From the NCBI RefSeq assembly GCF_017302275.1, contig NZ_JAFLDR010000041.1:1-34438 (forward strand): 34,438 nucleotides of DNA, read 5' to 3'. The translations under genes were made by a program, and so were the position numbers. The first letter of the stretch is position 1; each line of letters opens with the position of its first letter. This stretch comes from Sulfuritalea sp. (GTDB lineage Bacteria > Pseudomonadota > Gammaproteobacteria > Burkholderiales > Rhodocyclaceae). The notes under the pieces were generated by a model, which was given only the letters and a program-made list of their open reading frames with translations, was not told the origin of the DNA and searched no databases. Below, piece by piece: positions 10,037 through 20,262 of the stretch.

Positions 10037-10160
10037 CTAGTCAACTCGGAAGGCAAGCGAAAATCAGGATTTCTTACCGTTTCGATAAGCAAATGGTCTC
10101 GGCGACAGTGCGAAATCGAAACGGCCCGGTTGTCCTCGCAGCCGCGTGCGACAATCCCGC

Positions 10161-11168: not shown

Positions 11169-12317
11169 TTACGGCACGTACACCCACTTGCCGTCCTTGA
11201 TCTGGACCATGACGCGGGCGCGGTTGTCGAGGCCGATGTGGTCGCTCTTCGACATGCTGTAGACGCCGTTCGAACCGTGGACGTCCTTCGCGCCTTCGAT
11301 CGCGTCGCGCAGCGCCTTGCGGAATTCCGCGCTGCCGGGCTTGGCCGACTTCAGCGCAACCGGAATCGCCTTGTCGAGGATCTGCACCGCGTCCCACAGA
11401 TACACGGCGAACGGCGAGCGCGCGCCGGCGCCGGGCAGCGCTTCGTATTTCGCGACGAACTCGAGGCCCTGCTTTTTCGACGGATGGTCCGCCGGCAATT
11501 GATCCGCAACCAGCACCGGGCCGGATGGCAGCAGCGTGCCTTCGACGTTCTTGCCGCCCAGGCGCAGGAAGTCGTTGTTGGCGACGCCGTGCGTCTGGTA
11601 CACCTTGCCCTTGAAGCCGCGCTCGGCGAGCGCCGCCTGGGGCAGCACGGCCGGCGTGCCGAAGGAGGCGATGAACACCGTGTCTGGATTGTTCGCCAGC
11701 AGCTTGAGGATCTGGCCGGTGACGCTGGTGTCGGTGCGAGCGTAGCGTTCGTTGCCGACGATGGCGATGTTGGCGCCCTCGGCGAGCTTGCTGAAGGCTC
11801 GCCACCAGCCCTCGCCGTAGGCGTCATTGACGCCGATGAAGCCGACCCGCTTGCTGCCGTTCTTGGCCATGTGCTCGACGATCAGCGCCACCATCATGGC
11901 GTCGCTCTGCGGCGTCTTGAAGGCCCACGTTCGCTTGGCGTCGATCGGATCGACGATGGCCGCGCCGGCGGCGAGGCTGATCATCGGCGTACCGGATTCG
12001 GCGATGACGTCGAGCACGGCCAGCGAACTGGTGGTGAGCGACGGGCCGACGAGGACGTCGATGGCGTTTTCGGTGGTGAGCTTTTTCGCGTTCTTGGCGG
12101 CGGTGGTGGTGTCGGATGCGTCGTCGAGTTCGATGTAGCGCACTTTTTCACCACCCAGCGTGGTCGGCAGGACCGGCATCAGGCGCTGCTGCGGCATGCC
12201 CACCGAGGCGCCGGGACCGGTCGCCGAATAGATCACGCCGATCTTGATTTCCGCCTGCGCGGACGCGGCGAACAGGATGGAACCGGCGAACCCGGCCAAC
12301 AGTTTCCGAATCTTCAT
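11169..12317 (-). CDS. Periplasmic substrate-binding protein, branched-chain amino acid ABC type (382 aa)
   Basis: A periplasmic binding protein of the LivJ/LivK-like family. The signal peptide covers about residues 1-22, ending ASAQA before EIKIGVIYSATGPGA, the typical opening of this family. Later segments (LDVIAESGTPMISLAAG, KRVGFIGVNDAYGEGWW) also fit. These proteins bind amino acids, carboxylic or aromatic acids, urea and others. No permease or ATPase gene is in the window, so the transporter must be encoded elsewhere. Start ATG at 12317 has an AGGAG site. Upstream (12421-12442, inverted) lies the same operator-like sequence found before the ligase and mutase genes, so I infer that this protein captures the acid that feeds that pathway. 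Confidence 0.9.
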   Translation of the reverse strand: MKIRKLLAGFAGSILFAASAQAEIKIGVIYSATGPGASVGMPQQRLMPVLPTTLGGEKVRYIELDDASDTTTAAKNAKKLTTENAIDVLVGPSLTTSSLAVLDVIAESGTPMISLAAGAAIVDPIDAKRTWAFKTPQSDAMMVALIVEHMAKNGSKRVGFIGVNDAYGEGWWRAFSKLAEGANIAIVGNERYARTDTSVTGQILKLLANNPDTVFIASFGTPAVLPQAALAERGFKGKVYQTHGVANNDFLRLGGKNVEGTLLPSGPVLVADQLPADHPSKKQGLEFVAKYEALPGAGARSPFAVYLWDAVQILDKAIPVALKSAKPGSAEFRKALRDAIEGAKDVHGSNGVYSMSKSDHIGLDNRARVMVQIKDGKWVYVP

Positions 12318-12647
12318 GCGTTTCTCCTCTTGATGTGATGCGCTGACGTGGTGTTCGATGCGGCGGCAGGCCGACCATGCGAGCCGTGGTTCCGCAGCTC
12401 ACGGCGGCCGACGGTATAACAAACCGGTCGGTCGGTCAACTTATTTGAATTGCGCAGTACCGCGACTATCAATGCCACGCCACGCACAAACACGCGAATA
12501 AAGGCAGGCGTTGCCGGCCAGACCCAACGCCGTGCCACCAGCGCCGACTATTCGCAATCCGCTCGATCGGCTTTTATTCGCAGCCGGGGCCCTGTGTTAG
12601 CATTCCGGCGCTGCGCAGGGGCTGCGCATTTCGGCGATTGGGAAGAC
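12318..12647. other. Divergent control region between the binding protein and tetR genes
   Basis: It holds the minus-facing operator-like site at 12421-12442 and, closer to tetR, an inverted pair GCGAATAAA (12494-12502) and TTTATTCGC (12573-12581), with a further TATTCGC at 12549-12555. These could belong to the tetR promoter, but no good -35/-10 pair was found for tetR. No small gene was seen. Confidence 0.5.
12421..12442 (-). promoter_or_regulatory. TetR-type operator, site 1, upstream of the binding protein gene
   Basis: On the minus strand it reads AGTTGACCGACCGACCGGTT. It shares TTGACCGACCG with sites 2 and 3, followed by a core fitting CCG-RY-CGG/CCGG. A possible -10 (TATACC) lies 15 bases after the TTGACC, a short spacing. 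It is about 105 bp upstream of the binding protein start and about 205 bp from tetR, so either could be regulated. Confidence 0.7.
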
Positions 12648-13274
12648 ATGGCGCGAACAAGATCGCAGGGCTACGATTCGGTCAAGCAGGCCATCATCGA
12701 CAACGCGGCCAAGCTGTTCGCCACCAAGGGTTTCCCCAGCACGTCGATCAACGAGATCGCCGAGTCGGCCGGGCTTTCCAAGGCCGGGGTCTATCACTAC
12801 TTCGATTCGAAGAGTGAAATTCTGCGCGCGATGCTCACCGAGCACCTGGAAACGGTGACCGAGATCGTCGATACCGCGCTCAACACCTCCGAGCCGCCGC
12901 GCGCCAAGTTCCTCGCCTTCACCCGCATGCTGGTCGAAAGCTACACGCGCGCCGCCTCGCGCAACCAGCATGTGGTGCTGATGAGCGACATCGACGCGTT
13001 GCAGCCGAAGGACCGCGAGTTCGTCGTCGCCACCGAACGGCGCATCATCCGGGCCATCGAGCGCCTGCTGGAGAGCATCCACCCGCCGCTGAAGGACCAC
13101 CCCGATTTCAGCCGGCCCCTGACCATGCTCTTCTTCGGCATGATCAACTGGACCGACAACTGGTATTCGGAGAAGGGCCGGCTGGCCCCGGTCGAACTGG
13201 CTACTCTGGCGGCCGAGCTGTTCCTCAACGGGCTCGAACACACCGACTATTCCGGCATCCAGAAGCCGGCCTGA
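12648..13274 (+). CDS. TetR/AcrR-family regulator (208 aa)
   Basis: A one-component DNA-binding regulator. The N-terminal helix-turn-helix domain (about residues 10-57) has the family pattern AAKLFATKGFPSTSINEIAE followed by AGLSKAGVYHYFDSKSEIL. The C-terminal part is an all-helical ligand domain with no recognised ligand. The open frame extends upstream to 12450, but the ATG at 12648, with GGGAAG just before it, gives a normal-length TetR protein. It lies between the binding protein gene and the ligase gene, and three shared palindromic sites nearby suggest it represses these and the mutase operon. TetR proteins beside CoA-ligase genes often respond to acyl-CoA or the free acid; the ligand here is unknown. 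Confidence 0.92.
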   Translation: MARTRSQGYDSVKQAIIDNAAKLFATKGFPSTSINEIAESAGLSKAGVYHYFDSKSEILRAMLTEHLETVTEIVDTALNTSEPPRAKFLAFTRMLVESYTRAASRNQHVVLMSDIDALQPKDREFVVATERRIIRAIERLLESIHPPLKDHPDFSRPLTMLFFGMINWTDNWYSEKGRLAPVELATLAAELFLNGLEHTDYSGIQKPA

Positions 13275-13316
13275 TTTAGCGCGGCGACGACGAGCGCCGC
13301 AGAAGCCTGTTGCGTC

Positions 13317-13336
13317 GTTCCCGCAAAAGCGGGAAC
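13317..13336. repeat. Hairpin GTTCCCGC-aaaa-GCGGGAAC
   Basis: A perfect 8-bp stem with a four-base loop, 43 bp after the tetR stop, continuing into CCAGTGACT. The whole unit resembles a widespread beta/gammaproteobacterial repeat (compare neisserial dRS3, ATTCCC-N8-GGGAAT). There is no T-run, so it is not a typical terminator. A degraded copy may lie near 2109-2127. Confidence 0.6.
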
Positions 13337-13468
13337 CCAGTGACTCTCGCCGATAGAACCTCCGGATTTCCCCTTTGCGGCAATGCCGGGGCCAGGGTCG
13401 GCACTGCCGTACCGTTCCAACCACCCTCTTCCCCCACCCCAAGCTGCCGTGCCACGCCGCCAATAATT

Positions 13469-13499
13469 AGTTGACCGACCGGTCGGCCGTGTGTATTAT
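13469..13499 (+). promoter_or_regulatory. Promoter plus TetR-type operator, site 2, for the ligase gene
   Basis: TTGACC (13471-13476) and TATTAT (13494-13499) are exactly 17 bases apart, a strong sigma70 promoter. The spacer holds the perfect 12-bp palindrome CCGACCGGTCGG (13475-13486). A repressor bound here would block RNA polymerase directly. The ligase start is 75 bp downstream of the -10. Confidence 0.85.
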
Positions 13500-13573
13500 T
13501 TTCGGCAAACAGGGCGGCGCGGCTGGATGGCGCCACAGCGGACAACCAAAAACCCCGGGCCGAGGAGGAAGCA

Positions 13574-14917
13574 ATGGACAAGGCAATCCAGTTCGAACAT
13601 CCCGAGATCGAAAAGCTCGACCGGGACGGCATCGTCGCCATCCAGAAAACCAAGCTCAAGGCCCTCGGCGCGCGCCTGCAGAGTTCCCCCGAGTGGGTGC
13701 AGCATTTCAGGAAGGCCGGCATGACGCCGCGCGACCTGGGTGATTTCGACAGCCTGCACCACGCCCCGACGCTGGAAAAATCCAACCTGCGCGCGCTTTA
13801 CCCATTCCCGATGCTGACGGTCGACATGTCGCAGGTGCGGCGCTTCGTCGCCACCTCCGGCACCACCGGCCTGCCGGTGATGTTCGGCCTCACCGACAAG
13901 GACCTCAAGCAGCTGATCCCCTACCAGATGTGCCGCGTGCTGCGCGCTGCCGGCATGACTCCGGCCGACCGCGTCTACCAGGGCTACGGCTACGGCCTGT
14001 GGATCGGCGGCCTGGCCATGGACATCGGCCTCGCCGCCTTCGGCGCCACCAACTTCCCGCTCGGCCCCGGCCGCGGCGACCTGGTCACGACCTGGCTTTC
14101 CGACCACGGCTATACCGCCTGCAGCCTCTCGCCGCTGTGGCTGATGACCCTGGTGACCATGGCCAAGGCGCAGGGCATCGACCCGCGCAAGGCGTGGAAG
14201 CTGCGGGTCGGCGTCTTCGGCGGCCAGTCGATTTCCGCCGCCTTCCGCGACCAGCTCGAAGCCGAAATGCCGCCGGGATTCATGGCGCAGAACATCTACG
14301 GCACCACCGAAGCGGGCGGCCCGCTGGTCAGCATCTCCTGCCCCTACTCGCACGACGTGGACGAGATGCACCTGATCAATGAGGACACCATCATCACCGA
14401 AGTGGTCGACCCGGCGACGTTGAAGCCGGTGGCGCCGGGCGAAATCGGCGAAATCGTGATCACCACGCTGGACCGCGACGCCAGCCCGGTAGTGCGCTGG
14501 CGCACCCGCGACCTGGTGCGCCTGTCGGCCGACGCCTACTCTTGCCCCTGCGGGCGCCACGGCATGCCCAAGATCGGCCGCATCATCGGCCGCAGCGACG
14601 ACATGATCAAGGTGCGCGGCGTGATGGTGTTCCCCACCCAGGTGGAAGACATCATCGCCGCCACCGAAGGCGCGGTGAAGGAAGCCTGGCACATCTACAT
14701 CGACCAGGACGACGAGGCGATGGAACAACTCACCGTCGCCGTCGAGCGCAGCAAGGCCAGCACCATGCCCAGGGAGGACATACAGTACCGCATCGGCCAC
14801 GCGATCCACTCGCGCCTGGGCATCCGCGTCACCGTCGAATGCCACGACGAAGGCTTCCTGCCGCGCTACGAAGCCAAGGCGGTGCGCGTGCACCGGCGTG
14901 GCAAAGCCAAGGCCTGA
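13574..14917 (+). CDS. Acyl-CoA ligase of the phenylacetate-CoA ligase (PaaK-like) family (447 aa)
   Basis: An AMP-forming acid-CoA ligase: acid + ATP + CoA gives acyl-CoA + AMP + diphosphate. Motifs: TSGTTGLP at 94-101 (ATP-binding loop), YGTTEAGGP at 242-250, TRDL with Asp313, the hinge region GRSDDMIKVRG at 339-349, and a late Lys in EAKAVRV. The CPCGR motif at 324-328 and the length fit the PaaK family. The N-terminal VYENVPFYR-type segment of phenylacetate enzymes is replaced (LQSSPEWVQHF), so the acid need not be phenylacetate. Start ATG has AGGAGGAAG before it. Its promoter carries operator site 2. I infer it activates the substrate of the mutase at 16407-18501. The symbol paaK is withheld because no other paa gene is present. 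Confidence 0.9.
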   Translation: MDKAIQFEHPEIEKLDRDGIVAIQKTKLKALGARLQSSPEWVQHFRKAGMTPRDLGDFDSLHHAPTLEKSNLRALYPFPMLTVDMSQVRRFVATSGTTGLPVMFGLTDKDLKQLIPYQMCRVLRAAGMTPADRVYQGYGYGLWIGGLAMDIGLAAFGATNFPLGPGRGDLVTTWLSDHGYTACSLSPLWLMTLVTMAKAQGIDPRKAWKLRVGVFGGQSISAAFRDQLEAEMPPGFMAQNIYGTTEAGGPLVSISCPYSHDVDEMHLINEDTIITEVVDPATLKPVAPGEIGEIVITTLDRDASPVVRWRTRDLVRLSADAYSCPCGRHGMPKIGRIIGRSDDMIKVRGVMVFPTQVEDIIAATEGAVKEAWHIYIDQDDEAMEQLTVAVERSKASTMPREDIQYRIGHAIHSRLGIRVTVECHDEGFLPRYEAKAVRVHRRGKAKA

Positions 14918-14956
14918 CGTCCTGTCGAGCAGGTACCAATGCCGCGCACTTGATCG

Positions 14957-15037
14957 TTCGTGGTGATCGTGAGCCAGTCGAACGGTCGAACCACCTGACC
15001 CGCAACGAGGGTCCTTCGACAGGCTCAGGGCGAACGT
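14957..15037. repeat. Inverted pair of REP-like units
   Basis: GTCCTTCGACAGGCTCAGGG followed by CGAACG (15011-15036) is a very common bacterial intergenic REP-like sequence. An inverted, diverged partner (GTTCGTGGTGATCGTGAGCC continuing AGTCGAACG) lies at 14957-14986. The pair sits between the convergent ligase and MeaB-type genes and could fold and end transcription from either side. Confidence 0.65.
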
Positions 15038-15056
15038 GGCGACGGCGCGTCCAGTT

Positions 15057-16028
15057 TCAGGCGAACATGCGCGCCAGCAGCTCGTCGGCCACCGCGTAGG
15101 GATCGCCGCGGCGCGCCAGCACCGGCTCGATCAGCGGATCGAGCAAGGGGCTGGCTTCCGACTTCAGGCGCCGGTCGAGCTGATGGCGCAGGATCTCCGA
15201 GACCCGATGCCTGACCCGCTCCGCCATCCGCGCGCGCGCCAACTCGGGATGGGCGGCGAACGTGGCGAAGCACCTGTCGATCTGCGCGGCGAGGTCCTCG
15301 ACCCCCGCCCCGCTCGCTGCCCGGGTGCGAACCACGGGCGGATGCCAGGACCGGTTGCCATGCAGGCGCTGGCTCAGGGAGAGCATGTCCTCGAGGTAGC
15401 GCGCGGTGCGCTCGGCGTCCGGGTGGTCGCTCTTGTTCACCACGAAGATGTCGCCGATTTCGGTGATGCCGGCCTTGGCGGCCTGGATGTCGTCGCCGCC
15501 CATCGGCGTCTGCAGCAGCACCACGACCGCCGCGTGGCGCATGACGTCGGTCTCATTCTGGCCGACGCCGACCGTCTCCACCAGCACCACGTCCCAAGGC
15601 ATGGCTTCGAGCACGGTGAGCGCGTCGCCGGCCGCCCTGGCCAGGCCGCCCAGTTGTCCGCGCGAGGCCATGCTGCGGATGAAGACGCCGGGATCGCCGC
15701 TGTGGTCGCCCATGCGCAGGCGATCGCCGAGCACCGCGCCCCCGGTGAAGGGACTCGACGGATCGATCGCCAGCACCGCCACGCTACGGCCCTGTCTGCG
15801 CCAGTGGCCCACCATGCGATTGATCAGCGTGCTCTTGCCGGCGCCGGGCGGACCGGTGACGCCGATCACGCGGCCGTGGCCGCCGTGCAGGAACAGCGCG
15901 CGCAGGATGGGCGTGACGCCGTCATCGCCGCGCTCGATGCGGCTGATGAGCCGGGTGCCGGCGCGTATCTGGCCGGCGGTCACCGCCGCGACGGTGGCGG
16001 CCAGGTCGGAATCGGGTTCGGTGGTCAT
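15057..16028 (-). CDS. MeaB/ArgK-type G-protein chaperone of a B12-dependent mutase (323 aa)
   Basis: A P-loop GTPase that protects and reloads adenosylcobalamin-dependent acyl-CoA mutases. Motifs: Walker A GPPGAGKST at 59-67, the IDPSSPFTGGAVLGDRLRM segment (about 88-106), ETVGVGQNE (151-159, switch and G3 area), and NKSD at 198-201 for guanine recognition. The C-terminal helical part fits the family's dimerisation arm, and length is typical. An upstream in-frame GTG at 16073 is possible, but the ATG at 16028 gives the usual N-terminus. It is convergent with the ligase and divergent from the mutase. Unlike its neighbours it has no TTGACCGACCG site, so it may be outside the TetR regulon. Its obvious client is the mutase next door. 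Confidence 0.93.
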   Translation of the reverse strand: MTTEPDSDLAATVAAVTAGQIRAGTRLISRIERGDDGVTPILRALFLHGGHGRVIGVTGPPGAGKSTLINRMVGHWRRQGRSVAVLAIDPSSPFTGGAVLGDRLRMGDHSGDPGVFIRSMASRGQLGGLARAAGDALTVLEAMPWDVVLVETVGVGQNETDVMRHAAVVVLLQTPMGGDDIQAAKAGITEIGDIFVVNKSDHPDAERTARYLEDMLSLSQRLHGNRSWHPPVVRTRAASGAGVEDLAAQIDRCFATFAAHPELARARMAERVRHRVSEILRHQLDRRLKSEASPLLDPLIEPVLARRGDPYAVADELLARMFA

Positions 16029-16406
16029 GATGGTCGCAGGCCTCGAAGGTTCGACAAGGGCCGGGCTTAGCACCCGGTGCGAAAAGTATATCGCTTATTG
16101 CCGTCCATACGGTCGCTTTTTAGAATGGATTTTCGTCATTGTGTCCCAGGCACTTGCGGGGACGCGTCGCCACGCCATCAAGGCGTCATTGCGGCGAAAG
16201 CTGAAATGGCTTTGTGACTAGCCACTCGGCGCCTAATCTGGTCGTCGCCGGGGCAAACCATCCGTAGCCGGATCAGCACGACCACAGCGCCCGCACAAAT
16301 CAGTTGACCGACCGATCGGCTGGTTTTATACTCGCCTCACTGAGCGTTTCGTTCCCCTGCCGCATCCGCCGCAAGCGCTGGCCCTGACCCCAACCGGAGA
16401 GCACCC
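16029..16406. other. Divergent control region between the MeaB-type and mutase genes
   Basis: About 380 bp. The mutase-proximal part holds the promoter/operator at 16302-16332. An AT-richer patch at 16080-16140 has a minus-strand TATACT (16085-16090), which could be the -10 of the MeaB-type gene, though its -35 (ACCGTA) is poor. No small gene was seen. Confidence 0.5.
16302..16332 (+). promoter_or_regulatory. Promoter plus TetR-type operator, site 3, for the mutase operon
   Basis: TTGACC (16304-16309), a 17-base spacer, and TATACT (16327-16332) form a strong sigma70 promoter. The spacer starts GACCGATCGG, the same layout as at the ligase gene, with the CCGATCGG core at 16312-16319. The mutase start is 75 bases beyond the -10, the same distance as for the ligase. 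Confidence 0.85.
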
Positions 16407-18038
16407 ATGAAGCGTGAAACCGACTACGGCTACCAGATCAAGAGCGTCTATTCTCCCGAGGACATCGAAGGCTTCGACTACGACAAGGATCTCGGCAACC
16501 CGGGCAGCTTTCCCTACACCCGCGGCTACCACGCCGAGGGTTACCGCACGCGGATGTGGACCCAGCGCATGACGGCCGGCCTCGGCAGTTCCGTGCAGGC
16601 CAACGGCGTGCTCAAGAAATACCGCGAGATGGGCCAGCGCGGCGGCATGTGCGTGATCAGCGACCGCGTCTTTTCCGACTGCATCGATCCGGACCACCCC
16701 AATGCCAGGCGCGAGGCCGGCGTGCTGGGCTGGCCCGGCTGCTCGCTGCTGGAGTTCGAGGAACTGATGGACGGCATCCCCCTTACCGGCCAGTCGATCA
16801 CCCTGCTCGGCTCCTCGGCGCCGACGGTACTGCGCCTGGCCTATGTCGTTGCACTGGCCCGCAAGCGCGGCATCGACCCGAGCGAAGTGCATGGCAGCGT
16901 GATGGAATCGCCGTTCGAGAACTACTTCGGCCAGACCGACGTGCAGCCTTTCGACCTCAACCTCAAGCTCTGGCTCGACGCCTCGGAATACGTGGTGCGC
17001 AACAAGATCCGCATGCGCTCCAGCGTGATCAGCCAGCACTTCCAGGAATCCGGCGGCAACAACGCGCAGGCCATCGCGGTGGTGCTGTCGATGTACAAGG
17101 AGCTCTGCGGCAAACTGGTCAACGAGCGCGGGCTCGACTTCGACGACGCGGCGATGGTGCCCTACGAACTGGTAAGCATCGGCAGCCGTTTCTTCGAGGA
17201 GATCGCCAAGGTGCGCGCCATGCGGCGCATGTGGGCGCGCATGGCGAAAGACCACTTCAAGGCGAAGAAGGAAAAGTCCTGCCAGATGCTGATCGCGGTG
17301 CATACCTCGGGCCGCACCATGACCTACCAGCAGCCGCTCAACAACATCGCGCGCTGCGCGATCCAGACCCTGGCCGGCGCCATCGTCGGCTGCACCGCGC
17401 TGGACAACGCGACCATGGACAACGCCTACGCCGAGCCTTCCGCGCTGGCCGCGCGCATGTCGCTCAATACCCAGCACATCGTCGCGGTCGAGACCGGCGT
17501 CACCGACGTGGTCGATCCGCTGGCCGGCTCCTATTTCGTCGAGGCGCTGACCAACCAGGTCGAGGCCGAGGCCTACCGCATCCTCAAGGAGATCGACGAC
17601 CTGGGCGGCATGATCGCCGCCGTCGAAAAGGGCTACATCCAGACCATGCTGCGCGAGGAGGCGGCCAAGAAGTTCCGCGAAGTGGATACCAGGGAACGCT
17701 TGGTGGTGGGCGTGAACCACCTCGTCATCGCGCCCGAGGAGGACTTCGAAATTCCGATCCAGGAAGTGCACGAAGGCGATTCCGAGGCGATCGCCACACG
17801 CATGGAAACCTGGAAGAAAACGCGCGACATGCCGCTGGTCACCGCACGGCTGCGCCAGCTTCATGCCGACGCCGGCAAGGGCGACCGCTTCAACCTGATG
17901 CCGGCCATCGTGGAGGCTGTCGAGGCCTACGCCACGGCCGGCGAGGTGATCGGCGTGATCCGCATGGCGCGCGGCCTCAGCTACGATCCCTTCAAGGTCA
18001 TCGACTGCCCCTACGATTTCCAACTGGAAGCCGCGTGA
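16407..18038 (+). CDS. B12-dependent acyl-CoA mutase, large (catalytic) subunit, divergent type (543 aa)
   Basis: The catalytic TIM-barrel subunit of a split acyl-CoA mutase. Family landmarks: FPYTRG (35-40), RMWTQRMTAGLG (49-60), DPDHP (94-98), SQHFQESGG (209-217) with the active-site His211, TSGRTMTYQQPLNN (300-313), LNTQHIVAVETGVTDVVDPLAGSYFVE (353-379). Alignment by eye to known enzymes: the methylmalonyl-CoA carboxylate-binding Arg207 is Gln176 here, as in isobutyryl-CoA and 2-hydroxyisobutyryl-CoA mutases. Tyr89 (Phe in isobutyryl, Ile in hydroxyisobutyryl) is Thr56. The Asp117 of hydroxyisobutyryl-CoA mutase is Ile84. Tyr243 is Gln210. The usual FDLPT stretch is replaced by SDRVF. So it is neither a methylmalonyl- nor a 2-hydroxyisobutyryl-CoA mutase in strict sense; the substrate is probably a monocarboxylic acyl-CoA. 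GGAGAG precedes the ATG. The B12 domain is the next gene. Confidence 0.92.
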   Translation: MKRETDYGYQIKSVYSPEDIEGFDYDKDLGNPGSFPYTRGYHAEGYRTRMWTQRMTAGLGSSVQANGVLKKYREMGQRGGMCVISDRVFSDCIDPDHPNARREAGVLGWPGCSLLEFEELMDGIPLTGQSITLLGSSAPTVLRLAYVVALARKRGIDPSEVHGSVMESPFENYFGQTDVQPFDLNLKLWLDASEYVVRNKIRMRSSVISQHFQESGGNNAQAIAVVLSMYKELCGKLVNERGLDFDDAAMVPYELVSIGSRFFEEIAKVRAMRRMWARMAKDHFKAKKEKSCQMLIAVHTSGRTMTYQQPLNNIARCAIQTLAGAIVGCTALDNATMDNAYAEPSALAARMSLNTQHIVAVETGVTDVVDPLAGSYFVEALTNQVEAEAYRILKEIDDLGGMIAAVEKGYIQTMLREEAAKKFREVDTRERLVVGVNHLVIAPEEDFEIPIQEVHEGDSEAIATRMETWKKTRDMPLVTARLRQLHADAGKGDRFNLMPAIVEAVEAYATAGEVIGVIRMARGLSYDPFKVIDCPYDFQLEAA

Positions 18039-18078: not shown

Positions 18079-18501
18079 ATGGCAAAGGGCAACGGACTCA
18101 AGGTCATCGTCTCGATGATCGGACTCGACGGACACACCACCGGCGGCGAAGTCGTCTCCATGCTGTTGCGCGACGCCGGCTTCGAGGTGGTCTACCTGGG
18201 CGTGAACCAGACCCCGCAGACCATTGTCGACGCGGCGATCCAGGAAGACGTGGACGCGATCGGCATCAGTTCCCACGCCGCCAACTATTCGCTGATCGAG
18301 GAACTGATGGACCTGGTGCGCGCCAACGACCTCGACGACGTCATCGTCGTCTGCGGCGGCAACATCCCCAGGAAGCAGATCGAGCAACTCACCGCCAGGG
18401 GCGTGGCGAAAGTATTCACACCCGGCTCGGCGAGCAGCGACATCGTCGACTACCTGGCGAACAACACCCGCCGCTCGAACGCCGCCGCACTCCCCGCCTG
18501 A
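18079..18501 (+). CDS. B12-dependent acyl-CoA mutase, small (cobalamin-binding) subunit (140 aa)
   Basis: A stand-alone cobalamin-binding Rossmann domain. It has the DxHxxG signature as Asp17-Gly-His19-Thr-Thr-Gly22, where His19 should ligate cobalt in the base-off form. GGNIP (112-116 region) and VFTPGS near the end match the nucleotide-loop sites of the family. Where relatives read DGHDRGAK and LSGAH, this has DGHTTGGE and SSHAANY, so it diverges along with the large subunit. It follows the large subunit by 40 bp with an AGAGGA ribosome site, and a strong terminator follows. The two subunits surely form one enzyme. The split layout is like 2-hydroxyisobutyryl-CoA and isobutyryl-CoA mutases. 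Confidence 0.94.
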   Translation: MAKGNGLKVIVSMIGLDGHTTGGEVVSMLLRDAGFEVVYLGVNQTPQTIVDAAIQEDVDAIGISSHAANYSLIEELMDLVRANDLDDVIVVCGGNIPRKQIEQLTARGVAKVFTPGSASSDIVDYLANNTRRSNAAALPA

Positions 18502-18686: not shown

Positions 18687-19178
18687 TCAGGCGGCCAGCT
18701 TGGCAGCGGGACGCGCCTGGCGCCTGGCCACGAACTTCGTCACCACCTTCTTCGCGACCGGCTTGCGCACCGGACGCTTGGCGGCGGGCCGGCGCACGCG
18801 GGTCAGCTCGACCACCTGTGCCGAAACGCGGTGCACGCCCTTGCCGAGCAGATCGACGCCAAATTGCGCGGGTGCGGCCAGCCCGACTTTGTCCAGCACC
18901 GGCATCACGCGCGCTTCCAGCACCTGCTCGACCGCCTCCCACGCCGCGACCGATTTGTCATTGGCGGCGGCCACCGTGGTCCGCAGCAGCTTCAGGTTCT
19001 GCCCGGCCAGGTTGCCGGCCGTCGCGCCCAGCACGCCCCATACCTTCTTGCCCTGGTCGCGGGCGACGTAGAGCACGTTCAGGTTGGCCGAAAGCACATT
19101 GACGGCGGCTTCCCGCATCGCGACCACGACCTGATTGGCGGCAAGATCCTTCGGGAGCAGCTTTTTGGTCTTCAGCAT
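18687..19178 (-). CDS. Phasin-like protein with basic Ala/Lys/Pro tail (163 aa)
   Basis: The first about 125 residues are predicted amphipathic helix, rich in Ala, Val, Leu and Asn (AAVNVLSANLNVLYVARDQGKK), as in phasins that coat polyhydroxyalkanoate granules. The last about 35 residues are rich in Arg, Lys, Ala and Pro (RRPAAKRPVRKPVAKK), like the DNA-binding histone-H1-like tail of PhaF. It could tie granules to the nucleoid. The family match is by general character, not by a firm motif. The ATG at 19178 (MLKTKKLLP) has AAGGA at a good distance and is preferred over the ATGs at 19196 and 19193. Hairpins upstream (19236-19256, 19297-19316) may be regulatory. Confidence 0.7.
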   Translation of the reverse strand: MLKTKKLLPKDLAANQVVVAMREAAVNVLSANLNVLYVARDQGKKVWGVLGATAGNLAGQNLKLLRTTVAAANDKSVAAWEAVEQVLEARVMPVLDKVGLAAPAQFGVDLLGKGVHRVSAQVVELTRVRRPAAKRPVRKPVAKKVVTKFVARRQARPAAKLAA

Positions 19179-19235
19179 GATTGTTCCTTTCATCATTCAC
19201 GGGCCGGCCAGTGGGCCTGCCATCCAGCGATCGGA

Positions 19236-19410: not shown

Positions 19411-20262
19411 ATGGCGATCATTGCATTTCTCGGCACCGGCCTGCTCGGCGCGGCCTTCGCGGAAGCGGCGGCGCAGCGTGGCGACCGCGTCACGGTATGG
19501 AACCGCTCGGCGAGCAAGGCGCAGGCACTGGCGCAATTCGGCATCACGATCGCCGCGACCCCGGCGGAAGCGGTGCGCGGCGCATCGCGCGTGCATCTGG
19601 TGCTGAAGGACGATCCGGTGGTGGATGACATCATCGCCGCGGCGCGCGCGGGATTGTCCGCCGGCGCGGTGATCGTCGACCACAGCACGACCTTGCCGAC
19701 ACTGACCGCCGCACGCGCGGCAAAGCTGGCGGCAGCTGGCGTGAACTACCTGCATTGCCCCGTGTTCATGACGCCGCTGATGGCGCGCAACGCCAGGGGA
19801 TCGATGCTCGCCGCCGGGCCGGCCGCGCTGTTCGAGGCGGTCAAGGCGGACCTCGCGGCGATGACGGGACGCCTCGAATACCAGGGCGAACGCAGCGACC
19901 TCGCGGCGGCCAAAAAGCTCTTCGGCAACGCACTGATCCTAAGCCTGTCGGCGGCGATGGCGGACGTGTTGACGCTGGCCCAAGCCTGCGACGTGCCGGG
20001 ACAGGACGCGATCGGGATGATGGAACTGCTCGACCTCAACATGATGGTGGCGACGCGCGGTGCGAACATGGCGCGCGGGGATTTTCCGCCGAGCTTCGAA
20101 CTGGCGATGGCGCGCAAGGACGTCAGCCTGATGCTGGAGACGGCCGGCGCCCGCCCGCTGGCCCTGCTGCATGGCATCGCGGCACGGATGGACCAGTTGC
20201 TGACGGCCGGCCACGGCGCCGACGACGTCAGCGTCCTGGCGATCGACGCCGTGCAGCGCTGA
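19411..20262 (+). CDS. Beta-hydroxyacid dehydrogenase / imine-reductase-like NADP-binding protein (283 aa)
   Basis: An NAD(P)-dependent oxidoreductase of the 3-hydroxyisobutyrate dehydrogenase superfamily. The Rossmann loop GTGLLG is at 8-13. VWNRS (29-33), with Arg after the second strand, suggests NADPH. VDHSTTLP (89-96) and AAKKLFGN (166-173) are present, the latter giving the KxxxN pair Lys169/Asn173. Where classical members read PVSGGxxGA, this has PVFMTPLMARNA (117-128), so the usual Ser-Gly-Gly substrate loop is missing, as in imine-reductase-like relatives. The substrate cannot be named. An AGGA site precedes the ATG. It heads a tight plus-strand run through 21860. Confidence 0.85.
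   Translation: MAIIAFLGTGLLGAAFAEAAAQRGDRVTVWNRSASKAQALAQFGITIAATPAEAVRGASRVHLVLKDDPVVDDIIAAARAGLSAGAVIVDHSTTLPTLTAARAAKLAAAGVNYLHCPVFMTPLMARNARGSMLAAGPAALFEAVKADLAAMTGRLEYQGERSDLAAAKKLFGNALILSLSAAMADVLTLAQACDVPGQDAIGMMELLDLNMMVATRGANMARGDFPPSFELAMARKDVSLMLETAGARPLALLHGIAARMDQLLTAGHGADDVSVLAIDAVQR

Follow-up and report, generated by a model that had tools for sequence, protein, structure and literature searches.

The 34,438-nucleotide stretch of Sulfuritalea sp. analyzed here (positions 1 to 34,438 of contig NZ_JAFLDR010000041.1; the window) carries genes for a periplasmic binding protein, a TetR repressor, an acyl-CoA ligase, a MeaB-type GTPase, and the two subunits of a B12-dependent acyl-CoA mutase. 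Taken together, our results make it probable that these genes constitute, in a small number of environmental bacteria, a PaaR-type TetR regulon dedicated to the uptake, CoA activation, and B12-dependent rearrangement of an aromatic acid. The operators, their conservation in relatives, and the families of the genes can be read directly from the DNA, and the gene families agree with the sequence of import, CoA activation, and rearrangement that an earlier reading of this stretch (the sequence-only reading) had proposed.

A 16-mer, TTGACCGACCGNNCGG, occurs at positions 12424–12439 on the reverse strand and at 13471–13486 and 16304–16319 on the forward strand, confirming the three shared sites that the sequence-only reading had placed upstream of the binding-protein, ligase, and mutase genes. 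These are the only matches to TTGACCGACCGNNCGG in the window with up to one mismatch, and all three are exact; shuffled sequences contained 0.01 matches on average, and none of 100 shuffles reached three. Across the whole genome (4,409,354 bases), the exact 16-mer is present only at the same three places (two forward and one reverse) and its reversed control is absent. The bare 11-mer with two mismatches gave 18 matches against 13.2 expected, which is chance level, and genome-wide matches within two mismatches of TTGACCGNNCGGTCGG numbered 57 and 59 per strand compared with 81 and 77 for the reversed control. Since the reversed controls outnumber the motif forms loosened to one to three mismatches across the genome, the specificity is confined to the strict motif. 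A wider regulon was also considered and rejected: eight near-matches elsewhere (all six other one-mismatch sites to the 16-mer and two exact TTGACCGNNCGGNC matches) fall within mechanically called open reading frames (ORFs), which is a weak test in GC-rich DNA full of ORFs, and operator site 2 likewise overlaps two of them.

Operator 1 (TTGACCGACCGACCGG, 12424–12439, reverse strand) lies between the binding-protein gene and tetR. Operator 2 (TTGACCGACCGGTCGG, 13471–13499, forward strand) is embedded in the ligase promoter TTGACC-17-TATTAT and operator 3 (TTGACCGACCGATCGG, 16304–16332, forward strand) in the mutase promoter TTGACC-17-TATACT, and both are kept in the related loci L005–L008 and L078. 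These strong promoters with 17-bp spacers had been recognized correctly; they are two of the three promoter-like matches in 12300–16450, where 0.6 would be expected. The identical 75 bases between the last −10 base and the ATG of both genes (13499 to 13574 and 16332 to 16407), to which attention had also been drawn, are exact in the window. However, the distance from TTGACC to ATG, 103 for both the ligase and the mutase here, shrinks at the mutase to 77 in L007 and 78 in L008. Because relatives do not keep the spacing, we rejected it as a constraint, and it is probably not functional. A probable fourth operator (ACCGTATGGACGG, 16101–16113, reverse strand), followed by a TATACT −10-like box, precedes meaB. 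The short form ACCGNNCGGWCGG is found there with one mismatch in the window, none in L005, and one in L006, with the TATACT box on its 3' side in all three, and no site of this type is seen ahead of meaB in L007 or L008. The short form also yields chance matches elsewhere; meaB probably has an operator of its own.

To collect relatives, 84,980 species were scanned with single-protein patterns that required exact 8-mers, so the resulting counts are lower bounds. At least 15 mutase loci were obtained, of which 14 reach an identity of 69% or above and one has 37%; two of the 14 close loci (L013 and L014) belong to one genome. Among sampled whole genomes, the mutase (E 1e-95 to 1e-100) was present in 1 of 300 drawn from the order, 1 of 398 from the phylum, and 4 of 199 from the family, where the own genome is counted each time, the draws overlap, and the family-draw genome G824 is that of L007. 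The TetR, ligase, MeaB, and mutase genes are grouped together in L005–L009 and L078, and the operator is kept ahead of the ligase and mutase in relatives whose TetR is at least 64% identical. In the window and L005–L009 combined (137,757 bases), 12 sites lie within one mismatch of TTGACCGNNCGGTCGG, 10 of which fall at the promoters of ligase and mutase in the window and L005–L008, with the other two being upstream sites in L009. In L009 (3415–5208), an operator-like site with one mismatch lies ahead of a small ORF and of a gene from the phage integrase family, both adjoining the module. The two central bases of the operator vary freely (AC, TC, AT, TT, CT, CA, and AA), in keeping with a position at the middle of a repeat, while the arms are conserved, suggesting that selection acts on GACCG-NN-CGGTC. 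This inverted repeat is located inside TTGACCGNNCGGTCGG, within an operator core of TTGACC-G-NN-CGGTCGG, and overlaps the −35 box; the core CCG-RY-CGG put forward by the sequence-only reading is displaced by 4 bp and was discarded.

Two further genomes were fetched last. One of them, L078, comes from another genus of the family and carries sites at the binding-protein gene (no mismatches, as counterpart of operator 1), the ligase (none), and the mutase (one), with no further site at up to two mismatches in 15,000 bases; its binding protein shares 77% identity with that of the window. Given the conserved footprint and its recurrence in this out-of-sample genome, we strongly infer that the TetR protein represses the binding-protein, ligase, and mutase genes together. 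The sequence-only reading had argued for this shared control as well and had overlooked both the PaaR type of the switch and the probable meaB site. The nine other loci L010–L018 (133,097 bases) contain no site within one mismatch of the 16-mer. In L011, ACCGACTAGTCGGT lies ahead of the mutase and ACCGACTGGTCGGT ahead of tetR, both PaaR-type palindromes, and the TetR is only 34% identical. In L018, from a Desulfobacteraceae metagenome-assembled genome, a 25-bp palindrome, ACTGGTCGGAATTAGTCCGACCAGT (2592–2616), stands directly 3' of a TTGACA/TATTAT promoter-like pair and ahead of the gene for a PaaK-like ligase and of the mutase.

The repressor gene (12645–13274, forward strand) encodes a PaaR-like protein with the Pfam domains TetR_N and TetR_C_24. 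In Burkholderia cenocepacia, the PaaR operator ACCGACCGGTCGGT is located between the −35 and −10 boxes of paa promoters according to PMC2770484, and PaaR binds its operator and is released by phenylacetyl-CoA but not by phenylacetate, as we interpret compounds II and I in the numbering of the review PMC9493321. Site 2 differs from ACCGACCGGTCGGT by one mismatch and sites 1 and 3 by two each. Among the plasmid relatives of the window TetR, the protein encoded beside paaA-E in Novosphingobium is 39% identical and that of a Paracoccus paa cluster, in which TTGACCGGCCGGTCGGTT lies ahead of paaG, is 32% identical. By this resemblance, both regulator and operator belong to the PaaR type already known.

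The mutase consists of a large subunit (16407–18038, forward strand; PF01642, E 5e-125) and a B12-binding small subunit (18079–18501, forward strand; PF02310, with TIGR00640 above cut-off), and the GTPase that would act as its chaperone is encoded at 15057–16073 on the reverse strand (TIGR00750 above cut-off). With both family domains present and the small-subunit motif DxHxxG matched by DGHTTG, the fold and family of the mutase are certain, and a fold search agrees. The tree and the active-site columns place the large subunit in an isolated subfamily. The fetched members of this clade are 69 to 97% identical to the window mutase, whereas all other mutases seen reach at most 37%, and the clade sits on a stem of 2.2 changes per column (SH-aLRT 100) in a quick tree that returned long-branch warnings.

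Characteristic active-site residues are Tyr89, Arg207, and the catalytic His244 in methylmalonyl-CoA mutase (MCM) and Ile90 and Asp117 in 2-hydroxyisobutyryl-CoA mutase (HCM). In the alignment, Arg207, Tyr89, Met78, and Phe117/Leu119 of MCM correspond to Gln176, Thr56, Gly45, and Ser85/Arg87, respectively, so the Tyr89 and Arg207 signature of MCM is absent, and Gln176 is invariant in 16 of 16 rows. Likewise, HCM Ile90 and Asp117 are replaced by Thr56 and Ile84, and the HCM signature is therefore missing as well, while the catalytic histidine is retained as the invariant His211. The protein is also no GTPase–mutase fusion of the IcmF type, as the genes are separate and NF045497 scores far under its cut-off. 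Judged from the sequence, the pocket residues are smaller than those of MCM. The glutamine in place of Arg207 and these smaller residues together suggest that the substrate is a mono-acyl-CoA carrying a bulkier side group. The accessible parts of PMC11599936 and PMC10481361 do not give these residue roles in MCM or HCM.

The nature of the substrate is indicated by the genes around the mutase. The binding protein (11169–12317, reverse strand; Pfam Peripla_BP_6; model pLDDT 83) is of the aromatic-acid type, with 3sg0 (E 2e-115) and 4dqd (E 1e-113) as its best relatives in the PDB at 48% identity. The entry 4dqd is titled as a complex with 3-phenylpyruvic acid, and p-coumarate and caffeate binders are 42 to 43% identical. 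The ligase (13574–14917, forward strand) belongs to the PaaK family, with PaaK structures nearest (E about 1e-59); it matches TIGR02155 with E 1e-80 and 271 bits against a cut-off of 646, so it is not a PaaK equivalog, and it probably works like PaaK. Moreover, on the module's contig in the L008 genome, boxA is separated from tetR by about 5 kb and boxB by about 6.5 kb, with boxC next. In L007, some 6 kb separate the mutase genes from the phenylglyoxylate genes PaaK, PadI, and PadH, which are all above cut-off and have counterparts in L008 at 78 to 89% identity. The boxABC genes of the own genome are on another contig. Among 13 mutase genomes searched, boxB was above cut-off in 6 (the own genome included), paaA in 4, and the benzoyl-CoA reductase family TIGR02263 in 1. 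With a phenylpyruvate-type binding protein, a PaaK-like ligase, a PaaR-type regulator, and aromatic genes nearby in two relatives, the substrate is likely to be an aromatic acid.

The same evidence bears on the branched or tertiary acid that the sequence-only reading had favored. A module for an aliphatic acid resembling 2-hydroxyisobutyrate, pivalate, or isobutyrate, with a relative of HCM or ICM under its own TetR, would account for HCM (4r3u, about 30% identity) being the best sequence match among solved mutases, for the glutamine that HCM also has in the Arg207 column, and for the match of the ligase to 2-hydroxyisobutyryl-CoA synthetase (E 9e-30). However, PaaK structures outscore that ligase (1e-59 versus 1e-29), the HCM residues Ile90 and Asp117 are not retained, and the binding protein, the PaaR-type regulator, and the aromatic genes a few kb off in two relatives all point to an aromatic acid, which makes an aliphatic substrate unlikely.

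Slightly less likely still is an indoleacetate-type pathway, in which the mutase would act on benzylmalonyl-CoA or (2-aminophenyl)succinyl-CoA as IaaGH does. The Aromatoleum iaa genes, according to PMC8360864, do combine the IaaM binding protein, the IaaB CoA ligase, the IaaGH mutase, and the IaaQ/IaaR regulators. However, no iaaF-, iaaL-, or iaaC/E-like gene was found among the module genes or the part of their neighbors that was scanned. A dicarboxyl substrate would moreover be expected to need the arginine that is replaced by glutamine here.

The own genome encodes one TetR of the PaaR-like kind, the next TetR being 24% identical, and its paaA is on another contig than the module. Neither a relative of the TetR nor an exact GACCGNNCGGTC occurs in the 18-kb stretch around paaA, which has a single one-mismatch site at L048:4782 (other paa genes were not examined singly), and around paaA in three related genomes GACCGNNCGGTC is missing at zero or one mismatch. 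From the missing exact operator and TetR relative, the PaaR-type switch seems to serve the mutase module rather than paa in this genome. That the TetR is simply the organism's own PaaR and the module an addition to ordinary phenylacetate degradation, as its PaaR-like sequence and operator and the presence of paaA could suggest, is the least probable alternative given this paaA stretch, the confinement of the strict operator to the window, and the lack of a C3 in phenylacetyl-CoA for a 1,2-shift.

In the proposed aromatic-acid module, the TetR protein would occupy the TTGACC-G-NN-CGGTCGG operators overlapping the promoters of the binding-protein, ligase, mutase, and probably meaB genes and keep them off. 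After import, an aromatic acid would be activated with CoA by the PaaK-like ligase; the aryl-acyl-CoA formed would then free the promoters of the repressor, and release by an acyl-CoA is somewhat more likely than not. MeaB would load the mutase with B12, and the mutase would shift the CoA-thioester carbonyl onto the adjacent carbon, turning a 2-aryl acyl-CoA, a poor substrate for β-oxidation, into a straight-chain acyl-CoA. The simplest case would be the conversion of 2-phenylpropionyl-CoA to 3-phenylpropionyl-CoA followed by β-oxidation to benzoyl-CoA, which fits most simply because the shift leaves a benzylic radical; tropoyl-CoA or atrolactyl-CoA would be variant substrates. We offer this exact reaction, on a C6-C3 aryl-acyl-CoA and perhaps from 2- to 3-phenylpropionyl-CoA, as a conjecture that may well prove wrong. 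It is similarly conceivable, with no greater confidence, that the subfamily as found in Rhodocyclales, one alphaproteobacterium, and syntrophic and sulfate-reducing deltaproteobacteria interconverts 2-aryl- and 3-aryl-propionyl-CoA and that a phenylacetyl-CoA-type repressor was co-opted to control it.

Several observations weigh against this picture. Operator 1 differs from the consensus TTGACCGNNCGGTCGG by two mismatches, two other close plasmid relatives of the TetR (38% and 35%) lie outside paa clusters, and in L009 the ligase and mutase have only shorter variants of the site. The mutase model has a mean pLDDT of 70 with poor active-site loops, for which reason a pocket analysis on it was dropped. 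In the other late-fetched genome (G830/L077), a mutase pair of the same clade is surrounded by unrelated genes, and neither a ligase nor tetR nor an operator occurs within 18 kb. L005, whose mutase is 97% identical, retains only a 31-residue, 81%-identical remnant of the binding protein (L005:6099–6191) at the place that the intact gene occupies in the window, so uptake through it is dispensable there or the gene has been lost; the remnant itself looks like a recent loss in a near relative. In the deltaproteobacterial loci L011, L013, L015, and L017, the mutase lies beside a conserved FadD-like ligase and an MmgE/PrpD protein, a setting not obviously suited to an aryl acid, and these loci possibly handle a different substrate. 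L011 and L017 also carry TRAP transporter genes.

To our knowledge, the acyl-CoA mutases described so far act only on short aliphatic or phenylsuccinate-type chains. Searches of the open-licence PMC literature listed no 2-phenylpropionyl-CoA mutase; in PMC9956071, 2-phenylpropanoyl-CoA is made by a ligase, and the term "mutase" is absent from the part of that article available. The regulation is of a known kind; for the mutase clade and its connection to a PaaR-type switch, the same searches appear to offer no earlier description. If the proposal holds, the pathway would lead directly from hydratropate, tropate, or acids of the profen type to benzoyl-CoA and explain how some bacteria can degrade α-branched aryl acids, including profen-type drug residues, without prior attack on the ring. 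A clade with a rebuilt pocket would be tied by its promoter to an aromatic-acid-sensing regulator, giving a concrete reaction open to direct test.

Beyond the module, the window encodes a 169-residue protein without a Pfam or NCBIfam match (18687–19196, reverse strand), conserved in L005, and a 3-hydroxyisobutyrate-dehydrogenase-like protein identified by family search (19411–20262). Neither the transporter gene at 10146 nor the genes past 18501 have a site at up to two mismatches, and among the fetched loci their counterparts occur in L005 only.

Among known systems, the HCM system of Aquincola (HcmAB) resembles the module in that its mutase has two subunits, is accompanied by a MeaB-like protein and a ligase of the PaaK-like kind (6hdw), and carries glutamine at the substrate-selecting position, whereas the two mutases share only about 30% identity, Ile90 and Asp117 are replaced, and the window clade stands on its stem of 2.2 changes per site. 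The Aromatoleum iaa operon with the benzylmalonyl-CoA mutase IaaGH, as described in PMC8360864, also unites aromatic acid import, CoA ligation, and a B12 mutase, but the proteins scanned here include none resembling iaaF, iaaL, or iaaC/E products. Finally, the PaaR regulon of B. cenocepacia shares the TetR repressor and the operator type ACCGACCGGTCGGT with the window, but acts on paaA-K, whereas the targets here would be the genes encoding the binding protein, the B12 mutase, and the ligase of the PaaK family.

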